Origin: Smithellaceae bacterium
GTDB lineage: Bacteria > Desulfobacterota > Syntrophia > Syntrophales > Smithellaceae
Assembly (NCBI GenBank): GCA_028693285.1
Contig: JAQUVQ010000008.1
Coordinates: forward strand, 1-64,000
Direction of reading: 5' to 3'
Length of the DNA: 64,000 nt
Shown here: piece by piece, positions 8,959 through 48,867 of the stretch
Layout of the letters: each line of letters starts with the position of its first letter
Position numbering within the stretch: position 1 is the stretch's first letter
Program-made: the position numbers and the translations under genes
The notes under the pieces: model-generated
The model's input: only the letters and a program-made list of their open reading frames with translations
Told to the model about the DNA's origin: nothing
Databases searched by the model: none

Positions 8959-8987
8959 TTGACAAAACCCTTCCGGGGAATTATTAT
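8959..8987 (+). promoter_or_regulatory. Sigma-70 type promoter of cimA leader
   Basis: TTGACA (8959-8964), 17-nt spacer, TATTAT (8982-8987). Confidence 0.75.
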
Positions 8988-9007
8988 TCCGCAAAATTCG
9001 TTATTTA

Positions 9008-9094
9008 ATGGTACGGACCATGAATGCCGGGCGAGCCATCATCATTAGCAGAATAATTATCCGCTTCCCCCGAGGAGGCCTGGCCGTGGAGTAG
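9008..9094 (+). CDS. Isoleucine-rich leader peptide of cimA (attenuation)
   Basis: Short ORF MVRTMNAGRAIIISRIIIRFPRGGLAVE* (or from ATG at 9020) with six Ile codons in two clusters, between promoter and terminator. Confidence 0.8.
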   Translation: MVRTMNAGRAIIISRIIIRFPRGGLAVE

Positions 9095-9118
9095 CTGAAA
9101 TTTACGCTCAAGAAATTC

Positions 9119-9156
9119 AAATCCGCTGCCAGGGAAACCGGGCAGCGGATTTTTTT
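9119..9156 (+). terminator. Attenuator terminator upstream of cimA
   Basis: AAATCCGCTGCC (9119-9130) / GGCAGCGGATTT (9141-9152) 12-bp stem with U-tract to 9156. Confidence 0.88.
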
Positions 9157-9175: not shown

Positions 9176-10753
9176 ATGACGCAAAACAGGATTTTGATTT
9201 ACGATACGACGCTCCGCGACGGCACGCAGGGAGAGCAGGTCACCTTTTCCGCCGAAGAAAAGCTGCGGATTGCGCGCAGGCTGGATGACGTCCATTTTCA
9301 CTACATTGAAGGCGGCTGGCCCGGCTCCAACCCCAAGGACATGCGCTTTTTTGAAATGGCCAAAACGGTGAAGTTTAAAAATGCCAGATTGACCGCGTTC
9401 AGCTCCACCCGAAAGCCGCGCATCCGGCCCGATGCCTGCCCCAATCTCAAGGCGCTGATTCGGGCCGAAACCCCGGCCGTGGCGATCTTCGGCAAGGCCT
9501 GGGATCTGCATGTTGCCGACATTCTGAAAGTGACCCCGGATGAAAATCTGTCCATGATCCGCGACTCCATCGCCTACATGAAGGCCAGGGGCAAAGAGGT
9601 GCTTTTCGACGCGGAGCATTTTTTTGACGGCTGCAAGAACAATCCCCGGTATGCCCTTCAGGTGGTCAGGACCGCGCTCGACGCGGGCGCGGACAGGATC
9701 ATTTTCTGCGATACGAACGGCGGGGCCATGCCGCATGAGGTGAGCGCCGTTCTGGGAAAAGCATCCGCCGTTATTCCAATGGAGAAGGCCGGCATTCACG
9801 CCCACAATGACTGCGGCCTGGCCGTCGCCAATTCTCTTGCGGCGGTCCGGGAAGGCGTGAGAATCGTTCAGGGAACGGTCAACGGCTACGGCGAGCGGTG
9901 CGGAAACGCCGATCTGACCTCCGTGATCGCCAATCTGCAGCTCAAAATGAAAATGCGCTGCCTGCCGGTGGCCTCGATCCGGCAGCTCACGAACCTTTCC
10001 CTGTACGTCAGCGACGTGGCCAACATTCCGCCCCAGATGTCGAGGCCTTTTGTGGGGAAGAGCGCGTTTGCGCACAAGGGGGGCGTTCACGTCAGCGCCG
10101 TGACGAAAAATTCGGCGGCCTACGAACACATGCCGCCGGAGCTGGTCGGCAACAGCCGGCGCGTGCTGGTCTCCGACATGGCCGGCAAAAGCAATATCGC
10201 CTACAAGGCCAGGGCCCTGGGCATCGAGCTGGACGGGAAAAACGCGCTGGGCAAGGTGGTGCGCCAAGTCAAGCTGATGGAGGACAAGGGGTATCAGTTC
10301 GACGCGGCCGACGGGTCGCTGTCGATTCTGATGAAAAAAGCGATCGGCCAGTTTGTGGAGCCCTTCATGCTGGAGTGCTTCAGCGTGGTCACCTCCAGGA
10401 CGCTGGACAACCCCTGTCTGTCGCAGGCCACGATCAAGATTTCCGTGGGCGGCGAGGAGGAGCTGACGGCCGCCGAAGGCAACGGTCCGGTGAACGCGCT
10501 CGACCATGCCCTGCGCAAGGCGCTGACCAAATTCTATCCGCAAATCAAGGAAATGCACCTGGTGGACTTCAAGGTGCGCACGCTGGAAGGCTCCGAAGGC
10601 ACGGCCGCGGGCGTCCGCGTTTTGCTGGATTCGACGGACGGCTCCGAGCTCTGGAGCACGACGGGCGTTTCCGAAAACATCATCGAGGCGAGCTGGCAGG
10701 CGCTCATCGACAGCATCGAGTACAAGCTCAGCAAAGACCGGAAAAAGAGGTGA
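9176..10753 (+). CDS. cimA: Citramalate synthase (2-isopropylmalate/homocitrate synthase family)
   Basis: 525 aa, YDTTLRDGTQGEQVTFSAEEKLRIARRLDD, HAHNDCGLAVANSLAAVREGVRIVQGTVNGYGERCGNADL. Leader regulation by Ile codons supports the citramalate role. Confidence 0.85.
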   Translation: MTQNRILIYDTTLRDGTQGEQVTFSAEEKLRIARRLDDVHFHYIEGGWPGSNPKDMRFFEMAKTVKFKNARLTAFSSTRKPRIRPDACPNLKALIRAETPAVAIFGKAWDLHVADILKVTPDENLSMIRDSIAYMKARGKEVLFDAEHFFDGCKNNPRYALQVVRTALDAGADRIIFCDTNGGAMPHEVSAVLGKASAVIPMEKAGIHAHNDCGLAVANSLAAVREGVRIVQGTVNGYGERCGNADLTSVIANLQLKMKMRCLPVASIRQLTNLSLYVSDVANIPPQMSRPFVGKSAFAHKGGVHVSAVTKNSAAYEHMPPELVGNSRRVLVSDMAGKSNIAYKARALGIELDGKNALGKVVRQVKLMEDKGYQFDAADGSLSILMKKAIGQFVEPFMLECFSVVTSRTLDNPCLSQATIKISVGGEEELTAAEGNGPVNALDHALRKALTKFYPQIKEMHLVDFKVRTLEGSEGTAAGVRVLLDSTDGSELWSTTGVSENIIEASWQALIDSIEYKLSKDRKKR

Positions 10754-10775
10754 CGACCGCTGATTTTTTGGCCGT

Positions 10776-11447
10776 TTGCAGCCATTGCTAAATCTTTCAA
10801 TTGCTGATATGGAAGCCCAACGTAAAGCGAGGGCTCGAACGGTGTTGTCCATAAACAGCCAGAATCCCCAGATGCGCCTCATTCGAAAGGCGACGGATGT
10901 GTTGAGGGACGGCGGCATTATCATCTACCCGACGGATACAGTGTACGGCCTGGGCTGTGATTTATCGAACAAGCGAGGCATTGAGAAAATATACGAGATT
11001 AAAAGAAGAAACAAAAAACGCCCTTTAAGTTTTGTCTGTTCCGATCTGAAGCACATCAGTCAGTACGCGCTGGTCACGGATTATGCTTATAAAACCATGA
11101 AGCGGTTTTTGCCAGGACCCTACACGTTTATTCTGGAAGCATCCCGTCTGGTTCCGCGGATCATTTTGCCGAAAAGGCCGACGACGGGCATTCGCGTTCC
11201 GGACAACCAGATTTGTCTTGCTTTGATCCGGGAGCTCGGGCAGCCGATTATCAGCACCAGCGTTCAGACCCTGGACGGGGAAGACCTCGGCGATCCCGTG
11301 ATCATCAACGAACACTTCGGGCGCGTGGTGGATCTGATTATTGACGGAGGGATCATCGTTCCCGAGCCGTCGAGCGTCGTCAGCCTGGTGGACGACCGGA
11401 TTGAAGTTCTTCGAACTGGAAAAGGCGACGTGAGCGCCTTTATATAA
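10776..11447 (+). CDS. Sua5/YciO/YrdC family protein (L-threonylcarbamoyladenylate synthase-like)
   Basis: LRDGGIIIYPTDTVYGLGCDLSNKRGIEKIYEIKRRNKKRPLSF signature. True start may be internal. Confidence 0.85.
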   Translation: MQPLLNLSIADMEAQRKARARTVLSINSQNPQMRLIRKATDVLRDGGIIIYPTDTVYGLGCDLSNKRGIEKIYEIKRRNKKRPLSFVCSDLKHISQYALVTDYAYKTMKRFLPGPYTFILEASRLVPRIILPKRPTTGIRVPDNQICLALIRELGQPIISTSVQTLDGEDLGDPVIINEHFGRVVDLIIDGGIIVPEPSSVVSLVDDRIEVLRTGKGDVSAFI

Positions 11448-11470
11448 AATACACGAAGCGGCGGGATGTC

Positions 11471-13390
11471 ATGTCCGTCAGCCGCGCGGCCCGGGAAAGG
11501 CCGCCCAAAAGGATCCTTATGAAACATGTAATGCTCGTTAACGCCGTGCACAAGGAGCAAATGCGCATGGCCACGGTTGACGAAAAAGGCAAGCTGATTG
11601 ATTTTAACATTCAAATGGCCGTTCGGGAACCGATCACCGGGAACATTTACAAAGGCAAGGTGCTGAAGGTCGAACGCGGCCTGCAGGCGGCTTTTGTGGA
11701 TTACGGCGGCGTCAAGGACGGTTTTCTTCCCCTGCGCGACGTCAGCCACGAATACCTGACCGAACCGGAAAACGGTTCCTCCGGCGGCAGGGCCGTTCTG
11801 AAGACGGGCCAGGAAATCATCGTGCAGGTGGTCCGGGAAATCATCGGCAACAAGGGCGCCCTGCTGACGTCGTACATCTCCCTGCCCGGACGGTATCTCG
11901 TGCTGCTTCCCAACAAGCTCTGCGGCGGCATCTCCCGGAAAATCGAAAGTGAGGAAGACCGCCGGAAGATCAAGACGCTGATGGACCAGATCAAGGTTCC
12001 CGAGGGGATGGGTTTTATCGTCCGCACGGCCGGGATCAACCGAACCAAGCAGGAAATTCAGCGCGACTACCAGTTCCTGATGCGCCTGTGGAAGGAGATC
12101 ACCAAGAAGGCCGAAGACGCCTCCGAACCGTCTCTGCTCTACCAGGAGACGGATTTCGGCGTGCGGTCGCTGCGCGACTACCTGACGCAGGAAATGGACG
12201 AAATCTGGGTGGACGAGGTGGAAACCTTCCGCAAGATGCGCGCGTACCTGAAAGCGGTCGCCCCCCGCCATTTGCGAATCCTGAAGCAGTACAAGGACAA
12301 GACTCCGATTTTTGAGCGCAACTCGCTGGAAGAGCAGATCCGGGTGATTTACCAGGAACGCGTGGAGCTCAAGTCCGGCGGCTACATCATTATCAATCCC
12401 ACGGAAGCCATGATCACCATCGACGTCAATTCCGGACGCGGGTCGAACAAGCGAAACATCGAAGAAACCGCTTTCCGGACGAATGTGGATGCCTGTGAAG
12501 AAATCGCGCGCCAGCTCAGGCTGCGCGACCTGGGCGGTCTGATCGTCATCGATTTCATCGATATGATCGACAAGAAGCACATTGCCGAAGTGGAAAAGGC
12601 CTTCAAGAAGGCGCTGAGCATGGATCGCGCCAGAATTCAGCTTTCGCGCATCTCCAAGTTCGGCCTGATGGAGCTGTCCCGGCAGAAAAAACAGTCCACG
12701 ATTCAGGAAATCAGCTACACGACCTGTCCGTACTGCGCCGGCAGCGGTCTGCGCCCCTCTCTGGAGTACGCCTCTCTCGGGGCGTTTCGCAAAATCGAAT
12801 CGGAGGCGGTCAAGGGCACCTATTCGGAGCTGAGGGTCAGCCTGCCGCATGAAATCGCCCTGTACATCCTGAACAACAAACGGACCGAGCTTTTGAAGCT
12901 GGAGTCAACCTTCGGCGTCTGCCTGATTATCGAAGGAAAACCCGATATGGCGTGGGACAATTTCGAAATTCAGCAGTCCATGAAGGAGCAGGCCCTGGAA
13001 GTCAGCGCCATTCAGGGAGTGCCCCTGCTGAACCTTGCGGAAAAGACGGAGCCGGACGCGGAGGGCGGTGAAAAGCCGGAAGCGGAAGCCGGCGAAGCCG
13101 AAGAGCCCCCCAGGAAAAAGGGGCGGCGCCGTTCCCGCCACAAGAAAAGAAAATCGCCGGAGGCATTAAAAGGCTCCGTTGCGACGGAAGACGCTTTGCC
13201 CGACGCGCAGCCTTCCCCCGGCGGGATGGCGCCTCCGGTTTCCTCCTCGCAGTTTTCGCGTTTTCCCGTCAAGCCGCTGAAGATTGTCGGCGCGCTGCCG
13301 GAAGAATTCTTTCCGGTGGACTTAAGCGGCGATCTTTTCACGCCGGAAATGGATCAGGAAGATACGGGCCCGGAGCAGGAGGATAACTGA
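11471..13390 (+). CDS. Ribonuclease E/G family protein
   Basis: S1-like N-terminus (GNIYKGKVLKVERGLQAAFVDYGGVKDGFLPLRDV), catalytic ITIDVNSGRGSNKRNIEETAFRTNVDACEEIARQLRLRDLGGLIVIDFIDM, CPYCAGSG zinc link. Start probably ATG at 11521. Confidence 0.92.
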   Translation: MSVSRAARERPPKRILMKHVMLVNAVHKEQMRMATVDEKGKLIDFNIQMAVREPITGNIYKGKVLKVERGLQAAFVDYGGVKDGFLPLRDVSHEYLTEPENGSSGGRAVLKTGQEIIVQVVREIIGNKGALLTSYISLPGRYLVLLPNKLCGGISRKIESEEDRRKIKTLMDQIKVPEGMGFIVRTAGINRTKQEIQRDYQFLMRLWKEITKKAEDASEPSLLYQETDFGVRSLRDYLTQEMDEIWVDEVETFRKMRAYLKAVAPRHLRILKQYKDKTPIFERNSLEEQIRVIYQERVELKSGGYIIINPTEAMITIDVNSGRGSNKRNIEETAFRTNVDACEEIARQLRLRDLGGLIVIDFIDMIDKKHIAEVEKAFKKALSMDRARIQLSRISKFGLMELSRQKKQSTIQEISYTTCPYCAGSGLRPSLEYASLGAFRKIESEAVKGTYSELRVSLPHEIALYILNNKRTELLKLESTFGVCLIIEGKPDMAWDNFEIQQSMKEQALEVSAIQGVPLLNLAEKTEPDAEGGEKPEAEAGEAEEPPRKKGRRRSRHKKRKSPEALKGSVATEDALPDAQPSPGGMAPPVSSSQFSRFPVKPLKIVGALPEEFFPVDLSGDLFTPEMDQEDTGPEQEDN

Positions 13391-47095: not shown

Positions 47096-48646
47096 TCAGC
47101 TTAATTCAAGTTTAACCTTTTTGGCGTTGTCTTTCAGAAATTCCAGCCGGTTGAGCGCGTTGATGTACGCCTTGGCCGAGGCGACAATCACGTCCGGGTG
47201 CGCGCCGCGCCCGATGACGGAATTCCCGTTGTACTTGAGCTGCACCATCGTCTCGCCCTGTGCGTCCGCTCCGCCGGTAATGGCGTTGACCGCGTACTTC
47301 AAAAGCGGGTAGTTGGTCTTCGTGATGTTGCGGATGGCCGCGAAGGTTGCGTCCACCGGCCCGTTGCCGAAGCCCGCGTCGCGGATCACCTCTTTGCCCA
47401 CCTGCATTTCCATGGTCGCCGTGGGAATGGCCACATTGCCGCTCACCACGTTGAGGTAGATCAGGTTGTACTTTTCCTCGCCCCGGTAGATTTCTTCATA
47501 GAGAATCGCCTCCATGTCCTCATCGTAGATGTCTTTCTTCACGTCGGCCAGGTCTTTCACCTTTGCCGCGACGCGGTTGAGCTGATCCTCATTCAGGATG
47601 TAGCCCATTTTTTTCAGATGCTGCGAAATGGCCGCGCGTCCGGAGTGCTTGCCCAGAACGATATGGCTGTCGCTGATCCCGACGGACTGGGGCGTCATGA
47701 TCTCGTAGGTGATTTTTTCCTTGATCAGGCCGTCCTGATGGATTCCGGATTCGTGCGCGAACGCGTTGGCGCCGACGATGGCCTTGTTCGGCTGCACGGG
47801 AATGCCGGTGATCTGCGTCAGCAGGCGTGACGTTTTGTAAATCTGGTCTGTTTTGATTTGGGTGGTAAGGCCGAACAAATCCCTGCGCGTGGCCAGCGCC
47901 ATGACGATTTCCTCCATCGCCGTGTTGCCGGCCCTCTCCCCGATGCCGTTGATCGTGCACTCCACCTGACGCGCGCCCGCGCGGATGGCGGCAAGCGAAT
48001 TGGCCACGGCCAGCCCCAGGTCGTTGTGGCAGTGGACGGAGATGACCGTATCGCCCATATTTTTCACGCGGTCGAACAGGAAGGCGATGAGGCTTCCGAA
48101 CTCGTCGGGGACGGCATAGCCGACCGTGTCGGGAATGTTGACGGTGACGGCGCCCGCGTCGATCACGGCGGAAACCATTTCCGCCAGATAGTTCCTGTCC
48201 GAACGGGTGGCGTCCATCGGCGAAAATTCCACGTTGGGGGTGTAGGATTTCGCAAGCTTCACGGCCGCCGCCGCTTCCCTGAGCACCTGCACGCGGCTTT
48301 TCTTGAGCTGGTATTTCAGGTGGATGTCCGACGATGAAATGAACGTGTGAATGCGCGGATGCGCCGCGCCCTTGATGGCCTGCCAGGCCCGGTCGATGTC
48401 CTGTTTGTTGGCGCGCGCCAATCCGGCCACCTGAGACTTCCGGATTTCCCGGGCGATCTGCCGGACCGCGTCAAAATCTCCCTCCGAGGCGATGGGAAAC
48501 CCCGCCTCGATGATATCGACGCCGAGTTTTTCGAGCTGCCTGGCCAGCAGCAGCTTTTCCTCCGTGTTCATGCTGTTGCCCGGCGACTGTTCCCCGTCCC
48601 GAAGTGACGTGTCAAAAATATAGACGTGATTTTTATCCCTCTTCAT
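47096..48646 (-). CDS. leuA: 2-isopropylmalate synthase
   Basis: YIFDTSLRDGEQSPGNSMNTEEKLLLARQLEKLGVDIIEAGFP...VHCHNDLGLAVANSLAAIRAGARQVECTINGIGERAGN. Confidence 0.96.
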   Translation of the reverse strand: MKRDKNHVYIFDTSLRDGEQSPGNSMNTEEKLLLARQLEKLGVDIIEAGFPIASEGDFDAVRQIAREIRKSQVAGLARANKQDIDRAWQAIKGAAHPRIHTFISSSDIHLKYQLKKSRVQVLREAAAAVKLAKSYTPNVEFSPMDATRSDRNYLAEMVSAVIDAGAVTVNIPDTVGYAVPDEFGSLIAFLFDRVKNMGDTVISVHCHNDLGLAVANSLAAIRAGARQVECTINGIGERAGNTAMEEIVMALATRRDLFGLTTQIKTDQIYKTSRLLTQITGIPVQPNKAIVGANAFAHESGIHQDGLIKEKITYEIMTPQSVGISDSHIVLGKHSGRAAISQHLKKMGYILNEDQLNRVAAKVKDLADVKKDIYDEDMEAILYEEIYRGEEKYNLIYLNVVSGNVAIPTATMEMQVGKEVIRDAGFGNGPVDATFAAIRNITKTNYPLLKYAVNAITGGADAQGETMVQLKYNGNSVIGRGAHPDVIVASAKAYINALNRLEFLKDNAKKVKLELS

Positions 48647-48690: not shown

Positions 48691-48725
48691 AAAAAAAGGC
48701 CGCGGGTTCCGCCCGCGGCCTTTTT
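48691..48725 (-). terminator. leu attenuator terminator
   Basis: Minus strand AAAAAGGCCGCGGG-CGGAA-CCCGCGGCCTTTTTTT. Confidence 0.88.
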
Positions 48726-48747
48726 AGGTGACTGGTTATGCTTTTGT

Positions 48748-48867
48748 TCAGCGACGACCTAAAAACGGCGGGCAGGCGGCCTTGACCAACAGGCGCAACA
48801 GGGCGAGGCCCGGAAGCAGGGTCAAAAGAGCGCCAGCCAAAATCGTTGTCGTCGTGAAGCTGAACAT
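48748..48867 (-). CDS. leuL: Leucine-rich leader peptide of leuACDB
   Basis: 39-aa ORF MFSFTTTTILAGALLTLLPGLALLRLLVKAACPPFLGRR with 11 Leu codons; AAGGA RBS; followed by terminator and leuA. Confidence 0.85.
   Translation of the reverse strand: MFSFTTTTILAGALLTLLPGLALLRLLVKAACPPFLGRR

Follow-up and report, generated by a model that had tools for sequence, protein, structure and literature searches.

The closest described systems are the attenuators of enterobacteria (trpL, hisL, leuL, ilvL/ilvGMEDA and ivbL/ilvBN), in which a leader peptide containing codons for the end product is followed by a terminator and a mutually exclusive antiterminator, and the position of the ribosome serves as the sensor. 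The ilvL and ivbL leaders mix the codons of the branched-chain amino acids. The open literature also describes ilv operons of other bacteria that are controlled through leader peptides. Two reports on Corynebacterium describe a small ORF in the ilvBNC leader and attenuation of the branched-chain amino acid genes (PMC11857589, PMC10272879); that system belongs to another phylum, and its target is ilvBNC and not citramalate synthase. In Staphylococcus aureus, a further report (PMC5794164) places a leucine-rich attenuator peptide, together with control by CodY, on branched-chain synthesis; a leader peptide is thus shared with the locus described below, but the codons are those of leucine and the target is not cimA. 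Citramalate is absent from the main text of two comparative surveys (PMC545781, PMC2965389). No attenuator or other transcription control of cimA was found in the open literature, a coverage outside which lies the older survey of proteobacterial attenuators reportedly made by Vitreschak and co-workers in 2004.

The locus analysed here lies in a stretch of 64,000 nucleotides, hereafter the window, from a contig of a Smithellaceae bacterium. It shares with the enterobacterial attenuators the four features listed above, the last of them by prediction, and differs from them in its target, cimA, which forms the entry to the pyruvate/citramalate route; in contrast to ilvL and ivbL, its leader carries runs of Ile codons only. 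The mechanism would be a textbook one, whereas, as far as we have seen, its target gene and its breadth are undescribed.

The gene concerned (9176-10753, forward strand) codes for an (R)-citramalate synthase. Its product scores 711 bits with the profile TIGR00977, whose cut-off is 450, whereas no LeuA (isopropylmalate synthase) model reaches its own cut-off with it; the gene is therefore cimA rather than leuA, as had been argued from the DNA letters and the leader codons. A separate leuA is present in the same window (47096-48646, reverse strand), and the genes after it were identified by eye as leuC, leuD and leuB. Many anaerobes make isoleucine mainly or solely through the citramalate route. 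Among six genomes tested, none contains a threonine deaminase above the ilvA cut-off, and three of them lack a close homologue; the genome of the window possesses one short dehydratase, below all cut-offs. Downstream of cimA (10754-13390, forward strand) are genes for an L-threonylcarbamoyladenylate synthase and then an RNase E/G-like protein, the latter named by eye. No clear terminator is visible by eye between cimA and these genes, and they may therefore be co-transcribed with it and share its control.

All the elements that the sequence-only reading had placed upstream of cimA are present in the window at the positions given, and their arrangement is far beyond chance. A sigma-70-type promoter with 11 of 12 consensus matches occupies positions 8959-8987 of the forward strand, its hexamers TTGACA (8959-8964) and TATTAT (8982-8987) being separated by 17 nt; TTGACA with the 17-nt spacer recurs in 38 of 40 upstream regions from the window's family. 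It precedes, on the same strand, a leader ORF ending at a stop codon at 9092-9094, for which two in-frame starts, 9008 and 9020, had been proposed. The ORF itself was borne out, and its start could be refined: the start conserved among relatives is the ATG at 9020, giving a 24-aa peptide, MNAGRAIIISRIIIRFPRGGLAVE (9020-9094), while the ATG at 9008, which yields the longer reading MVRTMNAGRAIIISRIIIRFPRGGLAVE (9008-9094), is common to the closest relatives. The Shine-Dalgarno sequence at the leader start is weak.

The six Ile codons proposed for this ORF are found in two triplets, ATC ATC ATT (9038-9046) and ATA ATT ATC (9053-9061). Of the 618 ORFs in the window that are 15-60 aa long, the cimA leader alone has at least five Ile within any eight residues. 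Across 42 family leaders the six positions specify Ile in 245 of 252 cells (37, 42 and 41 leaders for the first triplet; 41, 42 and 42 for the second), with changing mixtures of ATT, ATC and ATA; all three synonymous codons are in use in the first triplet, and the amino acids at the two codons separating the triplets vary freely. The share of ATA among Ile codons is 34% in the leader versus 8% in cimA, which may raise the sensitivity of the leader.

Between the leader ORF and cimA there is an intrinsic terminator hairpin with a U tract (9119 to about 9157, forward strand; regions 3 and 4), 97.8% of whose cells are paired in the family. Its 5' arm, region 3 (CCGCTGCCAGG, 9123-9133, forward strand), can instead pair with region 2 (CCTGGCCGTGG, 9079-9089, forward strand), and the antiterminator so formed has the complementarity ascribed to it earlier, over 11 positions with one mismatch and one G-U pair. 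As region 3 is common to both helices, antiterminator and terminator are mutually exclusive. An additional short hairpin, absent from the sequence-only reading, separates the Ile codons from the antiterminator strand; it pairs GCUUCC (region 1, 9063-9068) with GGAGGC (region 2a, 9073-9078; hairpin 9063-9078, forward strand). Its cells are paired in 95.5% of cases in the family, and it is less regular across the order. Unlike the corresponding element of the enterobacterial attenuators, it overlaps region 2 by only a base or two, and because of this it need not block the antiterminator as the 1:2 hairpin of trp does. Folding of the window sequence up to region 3 with no ribosome in place still produced the antiterminator; since the 1:2a hairpin leaves the 2:3 helix able to form, the untranslated state carries no clear prediction. 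It is possible, as a guess, that the 1:2a hairpin acts as a pause hairpin for RNA polymerase.

Of the 51 genomes of the window's family, 47 have a CimA orthologue. The leader was parsed upstream of 42 of the cimA genes, and each of these 42 has an ORF with an Ile run, together with the region 2 strand and the terminator. A covariance model of the leader (R1) matches in 46 of the 51 genomes, usually with a single match adjoining cimA; in the five remaining genomes the assembly has no cimA or a contig edge lies at or near it. The leader is thus present in essentially every family genome whose assembly reaches upstream of cimA. In other families of the same order we took the regions upstream of cimA at 60 further loci, 59 of them long enough, and by our own count about 56 of these 59 have a recognisable Ile-run ORF before cimA; those without it are L153, L160 (with no more than two Ile) and L184, itself a diverged second cimA. 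The peptides of the order differ widely (for example, MKINTIIIIINGIIIRPPHIKGLIMV and MTNRDFSTIIIIGGIIRGTQPCAAW), but the leaders have in common an Ile run, region 2 and region 3.

Outside the order, the same leader design precedes cimA in two or more additional families of the phylum. In these families (f45 and f78; L245-L254) the leader is related to that of the window, and a Leu run often comes after its Ile codons, so that such leaders look as if two amino acids were read. At one Acidobacteriota cimA locus (L072) an Ile leader is present, and its antiterminator is very stable. A search for Ile runs at named, more distant CimA loci revealed no comparable leader in Paenibacillus or in most other phyla, and a scan of Firmicutes cimA loci for T-boxes gave none above threshold. 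At Desulfovibrionales-like loci the upstream ORF resembles, by eye, the end of an aspartate kinase. Apart from L072, the distant loci inspected have no such leader.

Other leaders of this type were observed in the same and related genomes. Within the window, a Leu-rich leader ORF, MFSFTTTTILAGALLTLLPGLALLRLLVKAACPPFLGRR*, with a terminator after it (48720-48698), lies directly before leuA (start 48646) in the region 48698-48867 of the reverse strand and would represent a second attenuator of the window; most of the 30 leuA loci inspected show it recognisably. Elsewhere in the genome of the window (L237; G000:C63:23140-23900, reverse strand), ilvB is preceded by a Val-run leader, MMFLKDFDSGRIWTQAIAGRLAVVVVRMGSAALYL* (VVVV), with a 12-bp antiterminator of -21.3 kcal/mol and two successive terminator-like hairpins, and this leader is also recognisable in relatives. 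In another genome (G004), the Ile attenuator is present a second time (MNTITIRHIIIISNIIISVHIGGLVLV*; L242:2983-3260, G004:C29, reverse strand), located not at cimA, but before genes for an acyl-CoA dehydrogenase and an electron-transfer flavoprotein (Etf).

The cimA leader might answer branched-chain supply in general and not isoleucine alone, a reading in keeping with the Leu runs of some f45 and f78 leaders and with the single Leu and Val codons near the end of the window leader. In the window's family, however, the runs are of Ile only, and leucine and valine have leaders of their own at leuA and ilvB; we therefore regard a general response as improbable. The presence of the Leu and Val leaders in the same genome supports Ile-specific control of cimA, and with leaders for Leu, Val and Ile at leuA, ilvB and cimA, respectively, each committed branched-chain step appears to sense its own product.

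The pairing of region 3 with its two partners was assessed by covariation. In the family alone the antiterminator is conserved with no covariation signal, because region 3 is almost invariant there, while the terminator does covary; the alignment was therefore extended to the order. In 62 leaders from across the order, aligned without reference to structure, the antiterminator is formed in 85.7% of cells, versus 22-62% for slid partners. Changes on both sides occur at 6 of its 12 pairs, in 66 cells compared to 27 in shuffles, and none of 500 shuffles scored as high; such cell counts are inflated by relatedness, and the signal comes mainly from the comparison between families. The terminator is formed in 98.2% of cells, with changes on both sides at 4 of 10 pairs (77 cells, versus 20 when shuffled). 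Region 3 changes jointly with both of its partners, as in CCUGAUAAUGG:CCGUUAUCAGG and CCUGGCCGUGG:CCGCUGCCAGG, and both-side changes also occur outside the window's family (L168, L159 and L147). The best helix between the terminator arm and the segment after the Ile run has a mean z of -2.7 against dinucleotide shuffles in the 42 family leaders, and of -3.5 in 55 other leaders of the order. Conservation of the Ile-rich ORF and of both helices in related genomes, with compensatory changes, had been proposed as a check on the attenuator, and all three are kept throughout the family and the order, each helix showing changes in both of its strands.

These data bear on the simplest alternative, namely a plain terminator preceded by a non-functional or coincidental Ile-rich ORF, with a low constant level of cimA maintained by partial readthrough. 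The strong terminator fits such an arrangement, but the Ile runs are kept across an order despite synonymous change, region 2 changes together with region 3, and region 2 follows the second Ile triplet at a constant distance in the window's family, so that we consider this alternative very unlikely. Just as unlikely is the use of the hairpins by a regulator other than the ribosome (a metabolite riboswitch, a T-box or an RNA-binding protein). Such systems have terminator/antiterminator pairs too, but Rfam gave no known element at the cimA leader at gathering or relaxed thresholds (no match at gathering scores, matches of chance level only at the relaxed one, and T-box and riboswitch models unmatched), and the conserved part is the Ile run of a predicted leader peptide, with no aptamer-like structure conserved.

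It is, in our assessment, highly probable that the cimA leader is a ribosome-mediated transcription attenuator which ties cimA expression to charged tRNA-Ile; we infer stalling, the switch itself and the response to isoleucine from the sequence elements, conservation and covariation observed above. RNA polymerase would start just downstream of 8987, with a ribosome following it and translating the 24-aa leader. Under a shortage of charged tRNA-Ile, this ribosome is predicted to stall at the second Ile triplet, covering region 1 and leaving region 2 (9079-9089) to pair with region 3 (9123-9133); the terminator would then not form, and cimA would be transcribed. With plentiful isoleucine, the ribosome would reach the stop codon (9092-9094) and hide region 2, such that the 3:4 terminator would form and transcription would end before cimA. 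On this evidence the cell very probably turns cimA on only when isoleucine is short.

This geometry, in which a ribosome at the Ile codons frees region 2 and one at the stop codon covers it, had been part of the sequence-only reading and agrees with folding carried out, in silico only, with the RNA under the ribosome masked. With the ribosome at the last Ile codon, and folding up to region 3, the antiterminator formed in 41 of 42 family leaders and in 56 of 62 order leaders; with the ribosome at the leader end, the terminator formed in all of them (42/42 and 62/62). At equilibrium the window sequence favours the terminator state over the antiterminator state (-31.5 versus -25.0 kcal/mol), and the switch therefore has to be kinetic, with the 2:3 helix in place before region 4 is made. 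Readthrough would thus depend on 2:3 forming ahead of region 4 synthesis, as in other attenuators.

The leader independently backs the cimA assignment of a gene that is easily confused with leuA, and it provides a ready experimental system as well as a covariance model for annotating many genomes. We would give about even chances to a broader proposal, in which an ancient Ile-tRNA-sensing attenuator constitutes an order-wide control of the citramalate route and, together with the Leu leader of leuA and the Val leader of ilvB, forms a complete set with each committed step sensing its own product, the G004 copy suggesting that the module was copied to a second, possibly isoleucine-related pathway. 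For the anaerobes that carry it, the Ile-codon leader shows how the citramalate route could be matched to demand.
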